Positions 635 through 32,700 of a stretch of DNA of 33,895 nt are shown one piece after another (the stretch's first letter is position 1; each line of letters opens with the position of its first letter). The notes below the pieces were generated by a model, which saw nothing but the letters and a program-made list of their open reading frames with translations, ran no database searches and was not told the DNA's origin. This DNA is from Treponemataceae bacterium (lineage in GTDB: Bacteria; Spirochaetota; Spirochaetia; Treponematales; Treponemataceae). The stretch covers positions 1 to 33,895 of the forward strand of contig JAILBN010000009.1 of assembly GCA_024680915.1 (NCBI GenBank), read 5' to 3'. Position numbers and translations under genes: made by a program.

Positions 635-1426
635 CTATATAAGCACATTCAGGACAATAGCTCCTGCAAGAATACCCAGGCCAATAAGAGTAAAAACATA
701 ATCACGTAAATGGTGCTTGTAAACTTTAGTGCAGCTTTGTCGTGTCCTGAAATAAAAGCCCCTTAGTTCGGCGGCTTTTGCTGTGAACTCAATCTTTCGC
801 ACCGCACTCATAAGAAGAGGAAAGCAAAGGGGAAGTATCATTCCCAGTTTTTTGAAAGGATTTTTTATTTCAAAGTCAACACCACGGGCTTTCTGACTTT
901 CTATAATCCCGGACATTTCTGAAGAAAAAACAGGAATAAAGCGGATAGCAGAAGTAAAGGTAAAGGCATATTTATATGGAATATGTAGTTCTTTGACCAT
1001 TGTGTTCGAAAGATCATTCAGGTTGATTACAGAAATCAAAACGGAAAGGGGTAAGGTGGCAGCGGTTAGTCTCATAACAAGCAGCAAGCCGTTACGGATT
1101 CCTGTATCAGTGATACCGAAGCTTTTCCCAAGTGGAATAACAATATTGCCAGTCTGGATAACAAGAATCTGAAGCACAAAGAGGAAAATAGACATTTTGA
1201 AAAGACCTCTGAAAATACCAAGAGTTCTTTTAAATAGACCGGAGCCTTTTTTTCCTTCTCCAATAAATCCAAGAAGAACATCAATAACAATTATTCCAAA
1301 CAGATAGAAAAAATTGGAAGTAACGAATGCTGAAGCACAAAGCAATGCCGCCACGAATATCTTTGTAAGCGGATGCATTTTATGAAGAATGGAATCGCCC
1401 TCTAAATAATCTAAAAAGCCTTTCAT
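635..1426 (-). CDS. ecfT: ECF transporter transmembrane scaffold EcfT
   Basis: A 263-residue CbiQ/EcfT family membrane protein. Several hydrophobic segments occupy roughly residues 22-55, 75-95, 110-135 and 240-262. The two cytoplasmic coupling motifs of the family are visible: KARG at about 179-182 and AELRG at about 219-223. These bind grooves in the two ATPases. EcfT joins the substrate-binding S component to the ATPase pair in the inner membrane. It is the last gene of the minus-strand unit S-A-A'-T; its ATG lies one base after the EcfA' stop. It ends 22 bases from the convergent thioesterase gene, with no clear terminator between them. Its dedicated S gene in the same operon makes this a group I-type ECF system. 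Confidence 0.92.
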   Translation of the reverse strand: MKGFLDYLEGDSILHKMHPLTKIFVAALLCASAFVTSNFFYLFGIIVIDVLLGFIGEGKKGSGLFKRTLGIFRGLFKMSIFLFVLQILVIQTGNIVIPLGKSFGITDTGIRNGLLLVMRLTAATLPLSVLISVINLNDLSNTMVKELHIPYKYAFTFTSAIRFIPVFSSEMSGIIESQKARGVDFEIKNPFKKLGMILPLCFPLLMSAVRKIEFTAKAAELRGFYFRTRQSCTKVYKHHLRDYVFTLIGLGILAGAIVLNVLI

Positions 1427-1427
1427 T

Positions 1428-2252
1428 TTATTCTACCGCCTTTTTTAGCTCTTTTATTTTATTTACCATCTCGTCAACAGTAAAAATATCCTTGTATTCA
1501 TCGCCTAAAAGAGAACAGGTTGCCGCAATCTGAGGTTGAAGCAGACGTGCTTTTTGAAGAAGTTCTTTGTCTGAAAGAAGCTCCCGTGTTTTTCCCTGGG
1601 CAAGAATTTCTCCCCGGTTCATTACGATAACGGATTTCGCAAAATCCAGTACTACTTCCATGTCATGGCAAACCATTATTACTGTGGTTCCCTTTTCGTT
1701 CAGTTTTTGGATTCTGCCCATAATCTCCATGCATTCCCGGTAATCAAGACCGGTGGTCGGTTCGTCAAGAATCAGGATTTCTGGATCAAGTGCTATAAGA
1801 CAGGCAAGACAAAGGCGTTGACGCTGCCCCCGGCTCATGTTATAAGGCTCAACTTTCGGGTCAAAGCCGAATTCTTTTATAGTCGCTTGTACTTTCTTTT
1901 CAATCTCCGATTTTTCAAATCCGTTATTCTTAAGGCTGAAAGCAATCTCTTCTTCTACTGTATTGCAGCATATCTGTCGGTCAGGGTTTTGGAACAAAAA
2001 ACCTATATGCTTTGCAAGGTCACTTACTTTTTTACGCCGGGTGTTCTCACCGAGGACAAAAACATCTCCTTCACTTGGTTGTAAAAGACCGTTGCATAGC
2101 TTTGAGAAAGTCGATTTCCCCGCACCATTCGAACCGATGATAGCCCTGAAATCACCTTTTTCGATATTTACATTAAGATTATGAACGTTTGCAGTTTCGT
2201 TGTAAGAAAAAGAGACGTTATGTAATTCAAGGACAGTCATTTCCTCTTTCAT
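1428..2252 (-). CDS. ECF transporter ATPase EcfA' (canonical switch His, altered signature)
   Basis: A 274-residue ABC ATPase. The chosen ATG at 2252 has GGAGG six bases upstream and overlaps the previous stop as ATGA; an ATG at 2270 lies inside the upstream gene and is less likely. Walker A GSNGAGKST is at 40-48, the Q-loop Gln at 88, Walker B LILDE at 160-164, and the switch His in VCHD at 196. The signature reads MSRGQ (139-143) instead of LSGGQ. The C-terminal 60 residues after the nucleotide-binding domain fit the extra dimerisation domain of ECF ATPases. It should form a heterodimer with the product of the upstream gene and power uptake through EcfT. The Arg in the signature matters when paired with the partner's missing switch His (see findings). 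Confidence 0.9.
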   Translation of the reverse strand: MKEEMTVLELHNVSFSYNETANVHNLNVNIEKGDFRAIIGSNGAGKSTFSKLCNGLLQPSEGDVFVLGENTRRKKVSDLAKHIGFLFQNPDRQICCNTVEEEIAFSLKNNGFEKSEIEKKVQATIKEFGFDPKVEPYNMSRGQRQRLCLACLIALDPEILILDEPTTGLDYRECMEIMGRIQKLNEKGTTVIMVCHDMEVVLDFAKSVIVMNRGEILAQGKTRELLSDKELLQKARLLQPQIAATCSLLGDEYKDIFTVDEMVNKIKELKKAVE

Positions 2253-3115
2253 TTCACGCCTCCGATGCATTTCTTCACAAAATCCGCAGCTTCCTGTGTG
2301 TTAAGGCAAATCCTCTCTTCCTTTTTCATTCCAACAGGAGTAAGCCCTTCATCCATCATTTTTCCTGTCAAAGTAAGCACTCTCGGACAGTTTATTCCTG
2401 CCTCCTCCATTTCTTTTTGATGGGTCAGAGTACTTCTTATTTCGCCGTAATGAACAATCTGCCCTTTTTCAAGAACGATCAGCTTTTTTACAAACTCGCA
2501 CAAAAGCATAATTTTTTGTTCTGCAATAATGATTGTTATTCCCTTTTCTTCATTCAACTTTTTAAGGAGCTTGAATATCTGAAGAGAGGAAGCCGGATCA
2601 AGCTCACCTGTAGGTTCATCCAAGACAAGATAATCTGGTTGAAGGGCTAGTATGGCCGCAAATACAACCTTTTGTTTCTGTCCTCCGCTTAAAGTGTTTA
2701 TTTCGCGGTGGCGAAGCTCACTGATATCCAAAGCTTCAAGAGCATTTGTTATGCGGCCTTCTATTTGTTCTGCCGGAATACCAAAGTTCTCAAGGCCAAA
2801 AAGAATTTCGTCCTCTACAAAGTAACTTACAATCTGGCTTTCAATATCCTGAAATACAGAACCGACCTTAAGTGCGAGTTTATCGGGTTTAATTTCAAAA
2901 GTATCCTGACCTTCGATTTTTACTGAGCCGTAAAAATCACCGGTATGATGATGTGGAATGAGTCCGTTCAAACAATTGCAGAAGGTGGTTTTTCCAGCCC
3001 CCGATTCACCGATTATTCCGACAAAATCACCCTTTTGAATTTCAAGTGAAATATTCTCAAGAGCATTTTGTTGGGAATCTGTATACTTAAAAGTCAGTTC
3101 TTGTATTTCAATCAT
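2249..3115 (-). CDS. ECF transporter ATPase EcfA (switch His replaced by Gln)
   Basis: A 288-residue ABC ATPase. The start at 3115 is chosen because AGAGGTG lies just upstream and the protein then begins MIEIQELTFKY, the usual first strand of the fold. The longer in-frame start at 3202 adds 29 residues unlike the family. Walker A GESGAGKTT is at 36-44, the Q-loop Gln at 89, signature LSGGQ at 142-146, and Walker B LVLDE at 163-167. Where the switch His is expected the sequence is IIIAEQK, so Gln200 occupies that position. The first ATPase gene of the ECF unit, it starts 61 bases after the S-component stop and overlaps the next gene by four bases. Pairing with the product of 1428-2252 is expected. 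Confidence 0.9.
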   Translation of the reverse strand: MIEIQELTFKYTDSQQNALENISLEIQKGDFVGIIGESGAGKTTFCNCLNGLIPHHHTGDFYGSVKIEGQDTFEIKPDKLALKVGSVFQDIESQIVSYFVEDEILFGLENFGIPAEQIEGRITNALEALDISELRHREINTLSGGQKQKVVFAAILALQPDYLVLDEPTGELDPASSLQIFKLLKKLNEEKGITIIIAEQKIMLLCEFVKKLIVLEKGQIVHYGEIRSTLTHQKEMEEAGINCPRVLTLTGKMMDEGLTPVGMKKEERICLNTQEAADFVKKCIGGVK

Positions 3116-3176
3116 TTTCACCTCTGTAAAACTTTGCGGCAATAATACTCCTATTCCAGAGTATGCCGAAGTTTCA

Positions 3177-3743
3177 TCATGCCTTTGCTGCTTCACAGAC
3201 AAAGGGTTTTTTAATTGCTTTCATCAAAGGTACGTACAAAAGTGCCACGATAACCGCGTTCAAGGCAGCTGTTCCAAGTACGATAGGCACATAAGCCGCC
3301 ATTGCACTTGGGTCGGATTGGATTACGACAAAAAGCAAGACTGTGAAAAGTCCGCCTGAGACTACGGTGCTTATGAATGTATTTACAGCAGCAAGGCCAA
3401 TTTCCATTGGTCTGTTTTTTGCTGGAATCAATATCAAAAGTCCCATACAAAGGGCTCCAGCAAACTCAGAAGCAAAATTGAGTCCGGCAGTTCCTGGAAA
3501 AAACTGACAGATAGCTCCAGCCAGAATTCCAACTATAAGGCTATACCAAAGCTTTGGACGAAGAAGTACGATAACCAGACAATACATCGCGATAATGAAA
3601 TTCGGTTTCATCCCAAATAAATTGATGAAAGTTCCCACAAAGAACTTTAATACTGCACCTGCTGCAAGAAGGACTGCTGTAAGTAGAAGATCACGAAGTT
3701 GAAGTCCTTTTTTTTCTTTCTGTACAATTTCTCTCTTTTCCAT
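3177..3743 (-). CDS. ECF transporter S component, possibly tryptophan/aromatic (TrpP-like)
   Basis: A 188-residue integral membrane protein with about six hydrophobic segments after a charged N-terminus. The ATG at 3743 has AGGAG seven bases upstream; the open frame continues upstream but that part covers the promoter and operators. The motif FGMKPNFIIAM (43-53), followed by a hydrophobic segment and QFFPGTAG, resembles my recollection of the tryptophan transporter TrpP family. This is not a confirmed hit. S components give substrate specificity to the shared EcfAA'T module and are usually this size. The operon diverges from a phenylalanine-attenuated pheA unit and shares operator-like dyads with paaK, which also points to an aromatic substrate. 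Family membership (ECF S component) is firm; tryptophan as substrate is inference. Confidence 0.72.
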   Translation of the reverse strand: MEKREIVQKEKKGLQLRDLLLTAVLLAAGAVLKFFVGTFINLFGMKPNFIIAMYCLVIVLLRPKLWYSLIVGILAGAICQFFPGTAGLNFASEFAGALCMGLLILIPAKNRPMEIGLAAVNTFISTVVSGGLFTVLLFVVIQSDPSAMAAYVPIVLGTAALNAVIVALLYVPLMKAIKKPFVCEAAKA

Positions 3744-3786: not shown

Positions 3787-3904
3787 GATTCTGTTAATAG
3801 AAACGCAACGTTACTACGGATAGTAACATATAGAGTTGTTACTGTCAATAGAAACACGAAAAAAAATTAGAAAAAATCATTCTTTTGTTTCTATTGACAA
3901 AATC
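3787..3904. promoter_or_regulatory. Cluster of four 18-bp dyads in the ecf/pheA divergent control region
   Basis: Four copies of a dyad with consensus GWTWCT-N6-AGWAWC lie here: 3787-3804 (GATTCTGTTAATAGAAAC), 3810-3827 (GTTACTACGGATAGTAAC), 3838-3855 (GTTACTGTCAATAGAAAC) and 3887-3904 (GTTTCTATTGACAAAATC, one mismatch). The second covers the -10 box and the third the -35 box of the ECF promoter; the fourth covers a -35 box facing pheA. Two further copies flank the paaK promoter at 6001-6059. The 6+6+6 layout is like that of TyrR boxes and TrpR operators, but the half-site differs from both. A repressor sensing an aromatic amino acid is the simplest reading. Confidence 0.65.
3820..3848 (-). 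promoter_or_regulatory. Promoter of the ECF transporter operon
   Basis: On the minus strand TTGACA (3848-3843) is followed after 17 bases by TACTAT (3825-3820). Transcription would start near 3813, giving a leader of about 70 bases before the ATG at 3743. Both boxes are embedded in the 18-bp dyads described for this region. Confidence 0.7.
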
Positions 3905-3936
3905 CTATTGACGCGATAATTACAAGTCGCTATTAT
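3894..3936 (+). promoter_or_regulatory. Overlapping promoters for the leader peptide and pheA unit
   Basis: Two phased promoters can be read. TTGACA (3894-3899), 17 bases, TAATTA (3917-3922) would start near 3929. TTGACG (3908-3913), 17 bases, TATTAT (3931-3936) would start at about 3943, at the leader ATG itself. The first has its -35 inside an 18-bp dyad. Both read into the leader peptide and attenuator. Confidence 0.6.
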
Positions 3937-3943
3937 TCACTCA

Positions 3944-4036
3944 ATGATTTTTGCATATTCTTTTTTTACATTTGCTTTCTTTTCATTTTTTGCCTTTTAC
4001 TTTTGGGGCAAGGGACGAATTTTTCTGAAAGCGTAG
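3944..4036 (+). CDS. Phenylalanine-rich leader peptide of the pheA attenuator
   Basis: A 30-codon open frame, ATG at 3944 and TAG at 4034-4036, translating as MIFAYSFFTFAFFSFFAFYF, then WGKGRIFLKA. Eleven of 30 residues are Phe, ten of them in the first 20, with two Tyr and one Trp. This is what a ribosome-sensing leader for a Phe biosynthetic operon looks like (compare E. coli PheL). Its stop codon falls inside a segment that can pair with the 5' arm of the terminator at 4062-4098. No Shine-Dalgarno sequence precedes it; the -10 box TATTAT ends seven bases before the ATG, so it may be read from a leaderless or very short-leader transcript. The peptide probably has no function once made. Confidence 0.85.
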   Translation: MIFAYSFFTFAFFSFFAFYFWGKGRIFLKA

Positions 4037-4098
4037 AATGTAAGAAATGCGGCTTATAAAGAGCGGTTCTATCCTTTCGGATAGGACCGTTTTTTTTT
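4028..4098 (+). terminator. Attenuator: antiterminator segment and intrinsic terminator upstream of pheA
   Basis: The terminator stem is CGGTTCTATCC (4064-4074) with GGATAGGACCG (4079-4089), loop TTTC, one G-U pair, then nine T (4090-4098). An alternative pairing is visible: 4028-4038 (AAAGCGTAGAA) with 4067-4077 (TTCTATCCTTT), nine Watson-Crick pairs, one G-U and one mismatch. That would destroy the terminator's 5' arm. The leader stop codon at 4034-4036 lies in 4028-4038. A ribosome finishing the leader therefore masks the antiterminator, while one stalled on Phe codons leaves it free. pheA begins 60 bases after the T run. Confidence 0.85.
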
Positions 4099-4158
4099 GC
4101 TGTCATGCTTATTTGCTCGATTTCTTGCTGACAAGATAAGAGATAAGAGGAGTTTCAT

Positions 4159-4962
4159 ATGAAAATAGCCTATAGTGGAATTGAAGGAGCATTCGCGAAT
4201 ATTGCCGCAAAAAGGGTTTTTCCTAATGATAAGTTGATTTCTTTCCCGGACTTTCGTTCTGCTTATGAAGCCGTTGAAGTGGGCGAATGCGATTACGCTG
4301 TTCTTCCTATAGAAAATAGTTATGCAGGGGAAGTAGGGCAGGTTACAGATCTGATGTTTCAGGGTTCGCTTTGGGTAAACAGTGTTTATACCCTTAATGT
4401 GGTCCAGAACCTTCTGGGAGTGAAAGGTGCTTCCTTGGAAAACATAAAAAAGGTAATCAGTCATCCCCAGGCATTGGAGCAGAGTGCAGATTTTATACAG
4501 AGATATGGTTTTAAGACGGAGGAGGCTATGAATACGGCCCGGGCGGCTAAGCAGGTTTCGGAAATGGGGGATATTACTACTGCTGCAATCGCCAGTGAAG
4601 AAACAGCTTCTTTGTATGGTCTGGAAATTCTTGCTTCTGGAATCAATGGTAAACAGGATAATTCCACACGTTTTGCCATTCTTTCTAAGAATGAAGAGAG
4701 TCTGGGCTTATCAGACGACAGGACCTTCATTCTTATGTTTGCGGTGAAGAATGAGGCCGGAGCTCTTGTTAAGGTCCTGAATAAACTGGGTGAGTTCGGT
4801 TTCAATATGAGCGTAATCCACAGCCGGCCTTTGAAGGGCTTGGCATGGACATATTATTTCTATGTGGAAGCAGAAGGTGAATACGGAACACCTGCTTGTG
4901 AGCAGATGCTTTTGGAAATGAAATATAGATGTGACAAACTAAAGGTTTTAGGGAGGTTCTAG
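4159..4962 (+). CDS. pheA: Prephenate dehydratase with C-terminal ACT domain
   Basis: A 267-residue monofunctional enzyme that decarboxylates and dehydrates prephenate to phenylpyruvate, the committed step to phenylalanine. The N-terminal catalytic part begins MKIAYSGIEGAFA and carries IENS (51-54) and the TRF motif (170-172), whose Thr is essential in the family. The ACT regulatory domain (about 190-265) has EAGALVKVLNKL and HSRP (221-224), where most homologues have ESRP. The domain normally gives feedback inhibition by Phe, and the Glu-to-His change could alter it. No chorismate mutase domain is present. GAGGAG precedes the ATG. Expression is probably set by the attenuator just upstream. 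The DAHP synthase gene follows after one base, so one transcript supplies the entry and branch steps. Confidence 0.95.
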   Translation: MKIAYSGIEGAFANIAAKRVFPNDKLISFPDFRSAYEAVEVGECDYAVLPIENSYAGEVGQVTDLMFQGSLWVNSVYTLNVVQNLLGVKGASLENIKKVISHPQALEQSADFIQRYGFKTEEAMNTARAAKQVSEMGDITTAAIASEETASLYGLEILASGINGKQDNSTRFAILSKNEESLGLSDDRTFILMFAVKNEAGALVKVLNKLGEFGFNMSVIHSRPLKGLAWTYYFYVEAEGEYGTPACEQMLLEMKYRCDKLKVLGRF

Positions 4963-4963
4963 G

Positions 4964-5992
4964 ATGAATATGGAATTCGAAAGACGGTTGGCAATTCCTG
5001 CAGAGGTGAAGGAGCAATTTCCACTTACAGGTAAAGTAAGCAAAATAGTTGAAGAAAAAAGAGCGGAGCTTAAAGCAGTTTTTGAAGGTCGGCAGGACAA
5101 GCTTCTCCTTATAATAGGACCTTGTTCCGCTGACAGGGAGGATGCCGTGCTTGACTATATGAACAGGCTGGCTCCTATTCAGGAAAAAGTCCGCGATAAA
5201 ATCCTCATGGTACCAAGAATCTATACGAACAAACCCCGTACGACAGGAGAAGGCTATAAAGGAATGCTCCATCAGCCTGATCCTAACGCAAAACCAGATT
5301 TATACAAGGGAATTGTAGCCTGCCGCCATATGCACATGAGGGCAGTGGCGGAAACGGGATTTATTTTTGCGGATGAGATGCTTTATCCAGAAAATTACCA
5401 GTATCTTGATGATATTCTGGGCTATGTGGCCGTAGGAGCCCGATCTGTAGAGGACCAGCAGCACAGACTTACAGCAAGCGGAATAGAAGTTCCAGTAGGA
5501 ATGAAAAACCCCACCAGTGGTGACTATGCCGTTATGATGAATGCTATTCTTGCAGCACAACATCCTCATACCTTCATTTACCGGGGCTGGGAAGTCCATT
5601 CCGAAGGAAACAAGCATTGTCATGCGATACTCCGGGGCTCAACCAACAAGCACGGAAATAATCAGCAGAATTACCATTATGAGGATTTAATAAGATTATG
5701 TGATGCCTATGATGAGATGGAATTGAAAAACCCCGCAGTGATTATTGATACGAATCATTCCAATTCAAAGAAGAATCCTTTTGAGCAGCCTCGTATTGTC
5801 ATGGATGTGCTAAATTCCTGCCGTCACAATGAGCGGATAAATAAGCTTGTGAAAGGCTTTATGATTGAAAGTTATATTGAGGATGGATGTCAGAAGACGG
5901 ATGGAAATATATATGGAAAGTCTATAACAGATCCATGTCTTGGTTGGGAAAAAACCGAAAAATTGATTTATGATATAGCAGAAAAATGTTAA
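4964..5992 (+). CDS. 3-deoxy-7-phosphoheptulonate (DAHP) synthase, class I (AroF/AroG/AroH type)
   Basis: A 342-residue enzyme condensing phosphoenolpyruvate with erythrose 4-phosphate, the first step of the shikimate pathway. Length and N-terminus fit the E. coli-type class I-alpha family. Seen are IGPCSAD (51-57; the Cys is a metal ligand), KPRTT (90-94), DEMLYPENYQYLDD, GARSVEDQQHR, GMKNPTSGD, and the C-terminal DTNHSNSKKNPFEQ. A GGGAGG precedes the ATG, and it starts one base after pheA. Placement behind pheA under the Phe attenuator suggests it is the Phe-responsive isozyme, although allosteric specificity cannot be read from sequence alone. A paaK-directed promoter and operators begin right after its stop. 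Confidence 0.95.
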   Translation: MNMEFERRLAIPAEVKEQFPLTGKVSKIVEEKRAELKAVFEGRQDKLLLIIGPCSADREDAVLDYMNRLAPIQEKVRDKILMVPRIYTNKPRTTGEGYKGMLHQPDPNAKPDLYKGIVACRHMHMRAVAETGFIFADEMLYPENYQYLDDILGYVAVGARSVEDQQHRLTASGIEVPVGMKNPTSGDYAVMMNAILAAQHPHTFIYRGWEVHSEGNKHCHAILRGSTNKHGNNQQNYHYEDLIRLCDAYDEMELKNPAVIIDTNHSNSKKNPFEQPRIVMDVLNSCRHNERINKLVKGFMIESYIEDGCQKTDGNIYGKSITDPCLGWEKTEKLIYDIAEKC

Positions 5993-6000
5993 AAAAAAGC

Positions 6001-6059
6001 GATTCTATAAAAAGAAACAGTTGACAAGGTTCTCTCGTGTTGTTACTATATATAGTATC
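6001..6059 (+). promoter_or_regulatory. paaK promoter with two 18-bp dyads
   Basis: TTGACA (6021-6026), 17 bases, TACTAT (6044-6049). The dyad GTTACTATATATAGTATC (6042-6059) covers the -10 box and contains the perfect palindrome TACTATATATAGTA. A second dyad, GATTCTATAAAAAGAAAC (6001-6018), lies just upstream of the -35 box. Both fit GWTWCT-N6-AGWAWC, as do the sites at 3787-3904, and the -10 overlap is at the same position as in the ECF promoter. This suggests a common repressor. Confidence 0.7.
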
Positions 6060-6097: not shown

Positions 6098-7339
6098 ATG
6101 AAACTTACAGAATTACAGCTTGAGCAGATACGTAATCAAATATGTCGTGTCAAGAAATGTGGAAACCCTTTTTATACTGAGCGTTTTAAGAATATTAATC
6201 CAGAAGATATAAAGACTCAGGAAGATTTTGAAAAATTAGTGCCATTCTGTTCAAAACAGGATCTTCGTGATGCATATCCCCTAGGACTAGCTGCTGTTCC
6301 TGAAGAAGAAATCGTGCGTATACATTCTTCCAGCGGAACGACAGGTTCTCCTGTAATTATACCTTATACACAGAAAGATGTTGATGATTGGGCTACTATG
6401 TTTGCGCGCTGCTATGAAATGGCGGGTATAACAAAAAAAGACAGACTTCATATAACTCCAGGATATGGTTTGTGGACTGCAGGTATTGGTTTTCAAGCTG
6501 GCTGTGAAAAGCTTGGTGCCATGGCAATTCCTATGGGTCCGGGAAATACTGAGAAACAGCTCCAGATGATGCAGGATTTAAAATCCACGGTAATCTGCGC
6601 GACTTCTTCTTATGCATTGCTTCTTGCCGAACAGGTTGAAGCTCGTAACTTAAAGGACAAGATTTTTCTTACAAAAGGAATTATCGGTTCTGAAAGATGG
6701 GGCGAGAAAATGCGTAACCGAATAAAGAATATTCTTGGTATAGAACTCTTTGATATTTATGGGCTTACGGAATGCTATGGTCCAGGAATCGGTATAAATT
6801 GTCCAGGAGAAGAGGGAATCCATATTTTTGATGATTATGTCTACATCGAGATTCTTGATCCTCTTACAGGAGAACCTGTTCCAGAAGGTCAGTTGGGAGA
6901 GGTGACACTCACGACTCTCGTTAAGGAAGGAGCTCCCTTGTTCCGTTTCCGTACCCATGACCTTGCCGCTTTTGTTCCTGGTGAATGCAAGTGTGGTTCT
7001 AAGTATCCTCGTATTACCCCGATTATGGGTCGTAGTGATGATATGGTTAAAGTAAAAGGGAATATTATTTTCCCCAGTACGATAGAAGATGTTATTCGTT
7101 CTGTCCCTGGAACTTCCAGCGAGTACAGGGCTGTAATAGAACATGTTGACGGTAAGGACAAGATGACGATTTTCGTAGAGGTTGAAGGTGGTACGGATAG
7201 GACGGAAGCTGCCCTAACGATGACTTATAATTTCAAGCAGAAATACAACATGACACCTGAAGTAAAAGTTGTGGGAGAAGGGGAACTTCCCCGCAGCGAG
7301 AAAAAAACAAAACGAATAGAAGACCGCCGTTTTGAATAG
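6098..7339 (+). CDS. paaK: Phenylacetate-CoA ligase family protein (PaaK-like)
   Basis: A 413-residue AMP-forming ligase that activates phenylacetate (or another arylacetate) to its CoA thioester in the cytoplasm. The P-loop-like SSSGTTGSP is at 77-85, YGLTE at 221-225, followed by the PaaK-type TTLVKEGAPLFRFRTHD segment and a C-terminal lid domain ending KKTKRIEDRRF. It is slightly shorter than the usual 430-440 residues. GGAGG lies seven bases before the ATG. It has its own promoter with two operator-like dyads and ends at a good terminator. With IOR it can form a two-step salvage route arylacetate to arylacetyl-CoA to arylpyruvate, known in anaerobes; in the other direction it conserves energy from arylpyruvate oxidation. 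Which direction runs here is inference. Confidence 0.88.
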   Translation: MKLTELQLEQIRNQICRVKKCGNPFYTERFKNINPEDIKTQEDFEKLVPFCSKQDLRDAYPLGLAAVPEEEIVRIHSSSGTTGSPVIIPYTQKDVDDWATMFARCYEMAGITKKDRLHITPGYGLWTAGIGFQAGCEKLGAMAIPMGPGNTEKQLQMMQDLKSTVICATSSYALLLAEQVEARNLKDKIFLTKGIIGSERWGEKMRNRIKNILGIELFDIYGLTECYGPGIGINCPGEEGIHIFDDYVYIEILDPLTGEPVPEGQLGEVTLTTLVKEGAPLFRFRTHDLAAFVPGECKCGSKYPRITPIMGRSDDMVKVKGNIIFPSTIEDVIRSVPGTSSEYRAVIEHVDGKDKMTIFVEVEGGTDRTEAALTMTYNFKQKYNMTPEVKVVGEGELPRSEKKTKRIEDRRFE

Positions 7340-30888: not shown

Positions 30889-32700
30889 ATGGCATATACC
30901 CATTATATTCTTGTCTGCGGCGGAACAGGCTGCGAATCAAGTAATTCAGACCTTATATTCAAGAACCTGCTGGAGGAAGCTAAGAACTTCGGCGTAGCAG
31001 ATAAGGTTCAGATAGTAAAGACAGGTTGTTTCGGTTTCTGTGAGAAGGGACCGATTGTTAAGGTTCTTCCGGAAGATTCCTTCTATGTTGAAGTAAAACC
31101 GGAAGATGCGAAAGAAATCATCGCAGAACAGGTTGTAAAAGGTCGTGAGGTAAAGCGCCTTCTTTACAACAAGGAAAAGAAGAGCATGGATTCTGTAGAG
31201 GACATTCAGTTCTACCAGAAACAGCTCCGTATCGTTCTGCGTAACTGCGGTGTTATCAACCCTGAGAACATCGAAGAATACATAGCCCGCGATGGTTATC
31301 TGGCTCTCGAAAAAGCTCTTTTCGACATGAAGCCTGAAGAAATCATTGAGGAAATCAAAAAATCCGGACTCCGTGGCCGCGGTGGTGCAGGATTCCCCAC
31401 AGGTTTCAAGTGGGAAGCTGGTATGAAGGCTGTCGGCGATGAGAAATTCGTCGTTTGTAACGCTGACGAAGGTGACCCTGGAGCTTACATGGACCGCTCC
31501 ACAATCGAAGGTGACCCTCACTCAGTTCTTGAGGCAATGACAATATGCGGTAAAGCTATCGGAGCTCACAAAGGCTTCATCTACATCCGCGCAGAGTATC
31601 CTCTTGCAGTTGACCGTCTTAAGATTGCTATGGCTCAGTCCCGTGAGGCAGGTCTTCTTGGTAAAGACATCCTGGGTTCCGGATTCGATTTTGATATTGA
31701 GATTCGTCTTGGTGCAGGTGCTTTCGTATGTGGTGAGGAGACAGCTCTTCTGCGTTCTATCGAAGGAAAACGCGGTATGCCTACTCCTAAGCCTCCGTTC
31801 CCAGCCCAGTGCGGTCTTTGGAACAAGCCTACTGTAATCAACAATGTTGAGACATGGGCAAACATTCCTGTTATCCTTACAAAGGGTGCAGACTGGTTCA
31901 ACAAAATCGGTACAGATGATTCAAAGGGAACAAAGGTTTTTGCCCTTACAGGTAAAGTTCAGAACTCTGGTCTTGTTGAAGTTCCTATGGGAACAACACT
32001 TCGCGAAATCATCTTTGAGATTGGTGGCGGAATCAAGAACGGAAAGAAATTCAAGGGTGTTCAGACAGGTGGACCTTCCGGTGGTATCATCACAGAAGAA
32101 AACCTGGATACTCCTATAGACTTCGGTGCTCTTACCCGCCTCGGCTCAATGATGGGTTCTGGTGGTATGATCGTTATGGACGAAGATGACTGTGTTGTTG
32201 ACGTCGCTAAGTTCTACATGGAATTCTGTGTTGATGAATCTTGTGGTAAGTGTTCTCCATGTCGTATCGGAACACGTCAGATGTACACAATCCTTGATAA
32301 GATTGCTTCTGGAAACGGAGAGATGGCTGATCTTCAGAAACTCGAGGACATTGGACAGGCTATGAAGTCTTGCTCTCTTTGTGCTCTTGGACAGTCAGCT
32401 CCTAACCCGACCCTTTCTACAATCAAGAAGTTCCGCCAGGAATACATTGATCATATTGAAAGCAAGAAGTGTGCCGCTGGTAAGTGTAAGAAACTGATGC
32501 AGTTCATCATCGATGAGAATAAGTGTATCGGTTGTGGTCTTTGTGTTAAAAATTGTCCTGCAAATGCTATCGTCAATAATCCGAAGAACGAGATTAAGGA
32601 AGGCAGGAAGCTGGCATGGAAGACAATTGACCAGAGCAAGTGTGTTAAGTGCGGTGCATGTATGACTAACTGTAAGTTTAAAGCAATTTACAAGAATTAA
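30889..32700 (+). CDS. hydB: NAD-linked [FeFe]-hydrogenase flavin subunit B (NuoF-like)
   Basis: A 603-residue subunit that binds FMN and NAD(H). In order: an N-terminal [2Fe-2S] thioredoxin-like domain (Cys10, Cys15, Cys47, Cys51); the FMN/NADH 51-kDa domain with GRGGAGFPTG (163-172) and the GAGAFVCGEETALL, EGKRGMPTPKPP region (275-302); an SLBB domain; the [4Fe-4S] site Cys452, Cys455, Cys458 and Cys498; and a C-terminal 2x[4Fe-4S] ferredoxin domain (Cys546-556 and Cys585-595). This layout is that of HydB in trimeric, electron-bifurcating hydrogenases. AGGAG precedes the ATG. Codon use is strongly biased, suggesting high expression. Confidence 0.96.
   Translation: MAYTHYILVCGGTGCESSNSDLIFKNLLEEAKNFGVADKVQIVKTGCFGFCEKGPIVKVLPEDSFYVEVKPEDAKEIIAEQVVKGREVKRLLYNKEKKSMDSVEDIQFYQKQLRIVLRNCGVINPENIEEYIARDGYLALEKALFDMKPEEIIEEIKKSGLRGRGGAGFPTGFKWEAGMKAVGDEKFVVCNADEGDPGAYMDRSTIEGDPHSVLEAMTICGKAIGAHKGFIYIRAEYPLAVDRLKIAMAQSREAGLLGKDILGSGFDFDIEIRLGAGAFVCGEETALLRSIEGKRGMPTPKPPFPAQCGLWNKPTVINNVETWANIPVILTKGADWFNKIGTDDSKGTKVFALTGKVQNSGLVEVPMGTTLREIIFEIGGGIKNGKKFKGVQTGGPSGGIITEENLDTPIDFGALTRLGSMMGSGGMIVMDEDDCVVDVAKFYMEFCVDESCGKCSPCRIGTRQMYTILDKIASGNGEMADLQKLEDIGQAMKSCSLCALGQSAPNPTLSTIKKFRQEYIDHIESKKCAAGKCKKLMQFIIDENKCIGCGLCVKNCPANAIVNNPKNEIKEGRKLAWKTIDQSKCVKCGACMTNCKFKAIYKN

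Follow-up and report, generated by a model that had tools for sequence, protein, structure and literature searches.

The region 5' of the pheA-aroF operon in the window (the whole stretch of 33,895 nucleotides from a Treponemataceae bacterium that was analysed, contig JAILBN010000009.1) is predicted to form a classical ribosome-mediated transcription attenuator, a reading to which a probability of about 0.9 is given. A Phe-rich leader ORF is placed 5' of a strong terminator (4063-4098), which is followed by pheA-aroF: the elements, their order, their conservation, the compensatory changes in one helix and the spacing of the promoter are established by comparison with related loci. This switch would very likely let a rumen spirochaete make its Phe-synthesis enzymes only under Phe shortage. 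The features of the region are as follows.

3887-3904, no strand assigned: operator-like near-palindrome GTTWCTATnnATAGWAAC, just 5' of the -35 hexamer, with 3 mismatches; further copies at 3810-3827 and 3838-3855
3908-3913, forward strand: -35 hexamer TTGACG; TTGA(C) with a 17-nt spacer is found 5' of every leader
3931-3936, forward strand: -10 hexamer TATTAT, from which transcription is predicted to start at about 3943-3944, the leader AUG
3944-4036, forward strand: Phe-rich leader peptide ORF, 30 codons, 11 of them Phe, UAG stop at 4034-4036; kept in 19 other loci
3963-3980, forward strand: RNA segment 1, inside the Phe codons; its partner is segment 2, with compensatory changes
4026-4046, forward strand: RNA segment 2, which holds the leader UAG and pairs with segment 1 (protector) or, via 4027-4039, with segment 3 (antiterminator)
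4063-4078, forward strand: RNA segment 3, which forms the 5' arm and the loop of the terminator; its core, GCGGUUCUAUC, is identical in 19/19 aligned loci
4079-4098, forward strand: RNA segment 4, the 3' arm of the terminator, followed by nine T; hairpin 4063-4089, T run 4090-4098
4159-4962, forward strand: pheA, prephenate dehydratase, the regulated gene (PF00800, 1.3e-50)
4964-5992, forward strand: aroF-type DAHP synthase gene of the same operon (PF00793; NF009395)

Leader peptide and its conservation

Translation of the window gives the leader peptide as MIFAYSFFTFAFFSFFAFYFWGKGRIFLKA, ending at a stop codon, and bears out the coordinates and codon counts of a preliminary description of this DNA. 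A search with PheA as the query yielded 24 loci. Among these, a Phe-rich leader was identified 5' of pheA in 15 Treponema loci, including Treponema bryantii isolates, and was absent from L015-L017 (Treponema, with pheA located after an ECF transporter gene) and from the non-Treponema loci. Of 274 genomes in the family, 20 matched a leader-peptide profile, namely nineteen in genus g17 and the genome of the window itself. With L032, L039, L043 and L045 added, the Phe-leader loci total 20, window included, and the gene 3' of the leader in the 19 further Treponemataceae loci is pheA or, in one case, aroF alone. This one case, L045, has a leader with seven Phe, four Tyr and two Trp codons, a mixture that fits the role of aroF in serving all three aromatic amino acids.

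Thirteen distinct leader peptides share the invariant residues F12, F13, S14, F16 and F18, with F7, F8, F10, F15 and F20 nearly so, and the Phe codons are maintained across loci despite non-conserved flanking DNA. In L009, the locus of the isolate T. bryantii NK4A124, the leader (at 2825) possesses an extra T in the Phe run, which shifts the frame such that the ORF stops before segment 2. This is either a true mutation, with constitutive read-through predicted, or a homopolymer sequencing error; it is a point against the attenuator reading.

Promoter and leaderless start

Upstream of the AUG, the Phe loci are conserved mostly in the two promoter hexamers and at base -1, which is A in 95% of loci. 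Every Phe locus has a promoter of the form TTGA(C)-17-TAnnnT that ends 6-9 nt 5' of the AUG (assigned by eye in L005 and L043), and no second conserved promoter was found within 60 bases upstream of the Phe leaders. The base rate of such a layout is 2.1% of 671 first-ATG starts, taken from ORFs of 100 aa or longer in the loci retrieved, even when a loose threshold is used. As the usual distance from -10 to +1 was applied to the promoter position, transcription is predicted to start at the AUG or 1-3 bases before it in all Phe loci. Such a start leaves no room for a Shine-Dalgarno sequence and would therefore explain its absence from the leader, which had been recorded from the outset as making ribosome loading unusual; a leaderless start from the promoter at 3908-3936 accounts for it best. 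It is considered highly probable that the Phe leader mRNA is leaderless, and we infer both its transcript start site and leaderless translation of the peptide.

It is unlikely that attenuation is real and the leader not leaderless, with transcription starting further upstream and ribosomes loading independently of a Shine-Dalgarno sequence. Such an arrangement would be in keeping with the status of the Phe-leader start site as a prediction and with the Shine-Dalgarno sequence and short 5' UTR of some Tyr leaders in the family, among them L084 in the genome of the window, but it has to contend with the position of the 17-nt-spaced -35/-10 pair in every Phe locus, with the 2% base rate of that layout and with the lack of any other conserved promoter in those 60 bases.

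RNA structure

RNA spanning 3930-4105 folds with -58.3 kcal/mol compared with a mean of -31.2 for dinucleotide shuffles (z = -7.1). It contains a three-way architecture of mutually exclusive helices, the 1:2 protector, the 2:3 antiterminator and the 3:4 terminator, with the leader stop codon within segment 2. It had been claimed from the window alone that all parts of an attenuator are present in the right order, that the terminator is strong and followed by nine T, and that the terminator 5' arm is a possible pairing partner for the end of the leader. The hairpin and its T run were recovered, bases 4027-4039 (including the UAG) can pair with 4066-4078 in a duplex of -16.8 kcal/mol, and all three pairings are kept across loci. 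The 1:2 protector helix, the promoter and the operator-like repeats are additions to that description. The refuting condition named with it, a lack of conservation of the Phe codons or of either stem in relatives, was put to the test and the reading survived: the codons and both stems are kept, and compensatory changes are present in helix 1:2 and absent from the near-invariant helix 2:3.

For helix 1:2, 93% of cells are paired on alignment A5, against at most 63% when the segments are slid by 1-3 columns, and four pairs are changed on both sides (14 such cells). None of 500 shuffles was as high for cells and score and 30 reached the number of two-sided pairs, counts to be taken as support and not as a probability, as related sequences may exceed such shuffles without structure. 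The covarying pair C36-G90/U36-A90 (alignment columns) falls on synonymous third positions, those of codon 12 (TTC/TTT) and codon 28 (mostly CGG/CGA). The block GCUUUC:GAAAGC of this helix is replaced by UCAUUC:GAAUGA in L014 and in L039, and by ACAUUC:GAAUGU in L045; in L043, GCUUUC is preserved though displaced by 2 nt, and hence is carried by different codons and other residues.

Helix 2:3 is paired in 89.5% of cells (at most 63% when slid) and is conserved yet nearly invariant; this is weaker evidence, because near invariance yields no covariation for or against it. Taken on its own, the window has a 2:3 pairing that is not exceptional compared with shuffles when segments are chosen automatically (p = 0.14), with such shuffle tests of 1:2 and 2:3 being uneven per sequence, partly as the script sometimes included the preceding hairpin; they were not counted in favour of the Tyr, His or branched-chain leaders described below. 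The significance of the RNA pairing in the window is carried by its conservation in 19 other loci and by the compensatory changes in helix 1:2. Variation in the terminator pairs is confined to the 3' side: segment 4 toggles between A-U and G-U pairs and segment 3 is constant, the pattern expected of a strand that pairs with two others. Segments swapped between loci pair worse on average than cognate ones, both for 1:2 and for 2:3. When the Phe region was masked and the RNA cut before segment 4, helix 2:3 was predicted in 20/20 loci with the shortest mask and in 19/20 with the two longer masks (the exception being L039). Stability favours the terminator (about -21 kcal/mol) over the antiterminator fold (about -12 to -19 kcal/mol with the longest mask), and the switch must therefore be kinetic; we infer such a kinetic choice between structures and its response to Phe.

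It is very unlikely that the leader is instead a functional small hydrophobic (membrane) protein whose terminator merely ends its own short transcript. The good conservation, hydrophobic character and basic tail of the peptide would suit such a protein, but the conserved features track RNA pairing (the paired synonymous third-position changes and the GCUUUC kept in another codon phase), and leader codon content matches the downstream gene, with Phe codons before pheA, Phe, Tyr and Trp codons before aroF alone, Tyr codons before stand-alone DAHP synthase genes and His codons before hisG; the frameshifted copy of L009 likewise argues against it. An attenuator bound by a protein or a tRNA (T-box-like or repressor-bound), with an incidental Phe-rich frame, is more improbable still: the operator-like repeats upstream suggest a DNA-binding regulator that also acts on the promoter, but there is no Rfam match to a T-box or riboswitch in the window at the gathering threshold, and the Phe frame, its start, its stop position and the spacing of the promoter are maintained in every locus.

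Proposed mechanism

In the attenuation mechanism proposed, RNA polymerase would start at the AUG at 3944 or one base before it, and a ribosome would load straight onto this 5' AUG. When Phe-tRNA is scarce, the ribosome would stall at the Phe run (codons 7-20) and mask segment 1, leaving segment 2 free to pair with segment 3: no terminator would form and pheA-aroF would be transcribed. When Phe-tRNA is plentiful, the ribosome would get to the UAG and cover segment 2, allowing the 3:4 terminator to form. If no ribosome has loaded, helix 1:2 would form and the terminator with it.

Operon, operator-like repeats and history of the locus

The pheA gene starts 60 bases past the T run, a distance given correctly at the outset, and possesses its own Shine-Dalgarno sequence, AGAGGAG, at 4146-4152. 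The motif GTTWCTATnnATAGWAAC has eight matches in the window compared with 1.25 expected, six of which are located in the intergenic regions either side of pheA-aroF (3787-3904 and 6001-6059), and most Phe leaders have a similar site close to their -35 or overlapping it. This near-palindrome is probably the operator of a regulator common to pheA, the divergent trpP/ECF operon and the ligase gene. The flanks of pheA in the window hold an operon for a TrpP-like ECF transporter (635-3743) and a phenylacetate-CoA ligase-like gene (6098-7339), which may serve to import aromatic acids or amino acids.

The pheA copies of other genomes of genus g1 are distant (30-39% identity). The hydB gene of the window (30889-32700) has 85-96% identity in four other g1 genomes and only fragments in g17, and the contig is therefore placed in g1. 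In G003 the same neighbours (the trpP/ECF operon and the phenylacetate-CoA ligase gene) flank an empty site corresponding to 3864-6023 of the window (comparison with L206), and in a g17 genome (L207) the leader and pheA adjoin the same ECF-trpP-ligase block on its opposite side. The simplest reading is that leader, pheA and aroF were gained as a single cassette in the lineage of the window, the alternative being loss of the cassette in G003. The empty site suggests that attenuator and operon were acquired horizontally as a unit, and the attenuator seems to have moved between genera along with its operon.

A fusion protein of about 650-690 aa holding a DAHP synthase domain was identified in many relatives (L052 and L054-L083); the scan of these loci found no Phe leader. 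In G002, the fusion frame holds a DAHP synthase domain and a prephenate dehydratase domain together.

Tyr, His and branched-chain leaders in Treponemataceae

Stand-alone DAHP synthase genes in genera g1, g5, g16 and g17 are preceded by Tyr-rich leaders, such as MKNITYAYYYYWYSHKACRVLAK and MKHTYYAYYYYYYSHD, and the genome of the window has the Tyr leader MTFNFYYDTFYFYSFYYYSDSGF before its second DAHP synthase gene (L084, about 370-441). Candidate His leaders precede hisG in several genera (g1, g5, g13, g18 and g20), including MNLVLFHAHHHYSHGKSA in the genome of the window (L125, 1099-1155), and the ilvB gene of one genome (L156) has the branched-chain leader MNTVFAVLVVVLVSVVVLKCGLVQEDLYMQRNY. 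In the examples that were inspected, a terminator lies 5' of the gene. A promoter 6-10 nt 5' of the AUG is present in most leaders; the Tyr leaders L084, L088, L089, L091 and L101 possess a Shine-Dalgarno-like site, so not all are leaderless. An automatic scan of nine trpE loci found no Trp leaders, and no convincing His leader was found among the 30 hisG loci that scored best in a search across the phylum, nor in most of the further loci taken. One possible His leader with a GTG start was seen in a sister family (L191). In L103, the Rfam TD-1 RNA (RF03155; 1073-1193, reverse strand) is located between the terminator of a Tyr leader and the DAHP synthase gene, and is possibly a second layer of RNA control.

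The occurrence of Tyr, His and branched-chain leaders before matching genes in this family also speaks for attenuation at pheA-aroF. It is likely that Treponemataceae use recurrent, mostly leaderless Phe, Tyr, His and branched-chain leaders for attenuation, including Tyr-codon attenuators of DAHP synthase. We know of no described leader peptide with Tyr-codon specificity for DAHP synthase, and no open-access paper was found to combine the terms 'tyrosine codons', 'leader peptide' and 'attenuation'.

Comparison with known systems

No described case of ribosome-mediated attenuation in spirochaetes was known at the outset, in agreement with the open-access literature, where no description for Treponema or spirochaetes was found; subscription journals may differ. 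The mechanism itself is already known, and it is the clade, the leaderless loading and the Tyr leaders that are apparently new. Textbook ribosome-mediated attenuation is thereby placed in a phylum for which no description was found, with candidates there for several amino acids, and functional assignments are offered for overlooked small ORFs of rumen Treponema.

The Rfam family Phe_leader (RF01859), the attenuator of E. coli pheA and pheST, likewise has a leader of Phe codons, alternative hairpins, a terminator and a Phe gene (prephenate dehydratase or other) downstream. The leader of the window is not a member (18.5 bits compared with a gathering score of 55, E = 1.1), and it differs in its predicted leaderless start, its sequence, its phylum and its pheA-aroF operon. 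A match to a snoRNA family (RF02412) had a low E-value but scored 30 bits compared with a gathering score of 100, and was dismissed as chance. To our knowledge, the Phe leader has no sequence relation to the trpL and ilvBNC leaders discussed below.

A candidate uORF with a ribosome binding site and at least one Phe codon has been described for aroF of Acholeplasma (uORFC-13-1 motif, PMC8632094). It resembles the present system in combining a candidate Phe-codon uORF with a terminator 5' of a DAHP synthase gene, and differs in the ribosome binding site and the minimum of one Phe codon of its description and in its phylum. A leaderless leader peptide is documented for the trpL attenuator of Sinorhizobium meliloti (PMC7298713) and discussed for the ilvBNC attenuator of Corynebacterium glutamicum (PMC11857589). 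In these two, ribosome-mediated attenuation acts on an mRNA whose 5' end is at the leader AUG or adjacent to it, as is predicted for the Phe leader; the amino acid and the clade differ: Phe and Treponemataceae here, other amino acids and other phyla there. With loading needed within the first few dozen transcribed bases, the Phe leader would provide a test bed for how a ribosome keeps pace with the polymerase on an mRNA that has no 5' UTR.
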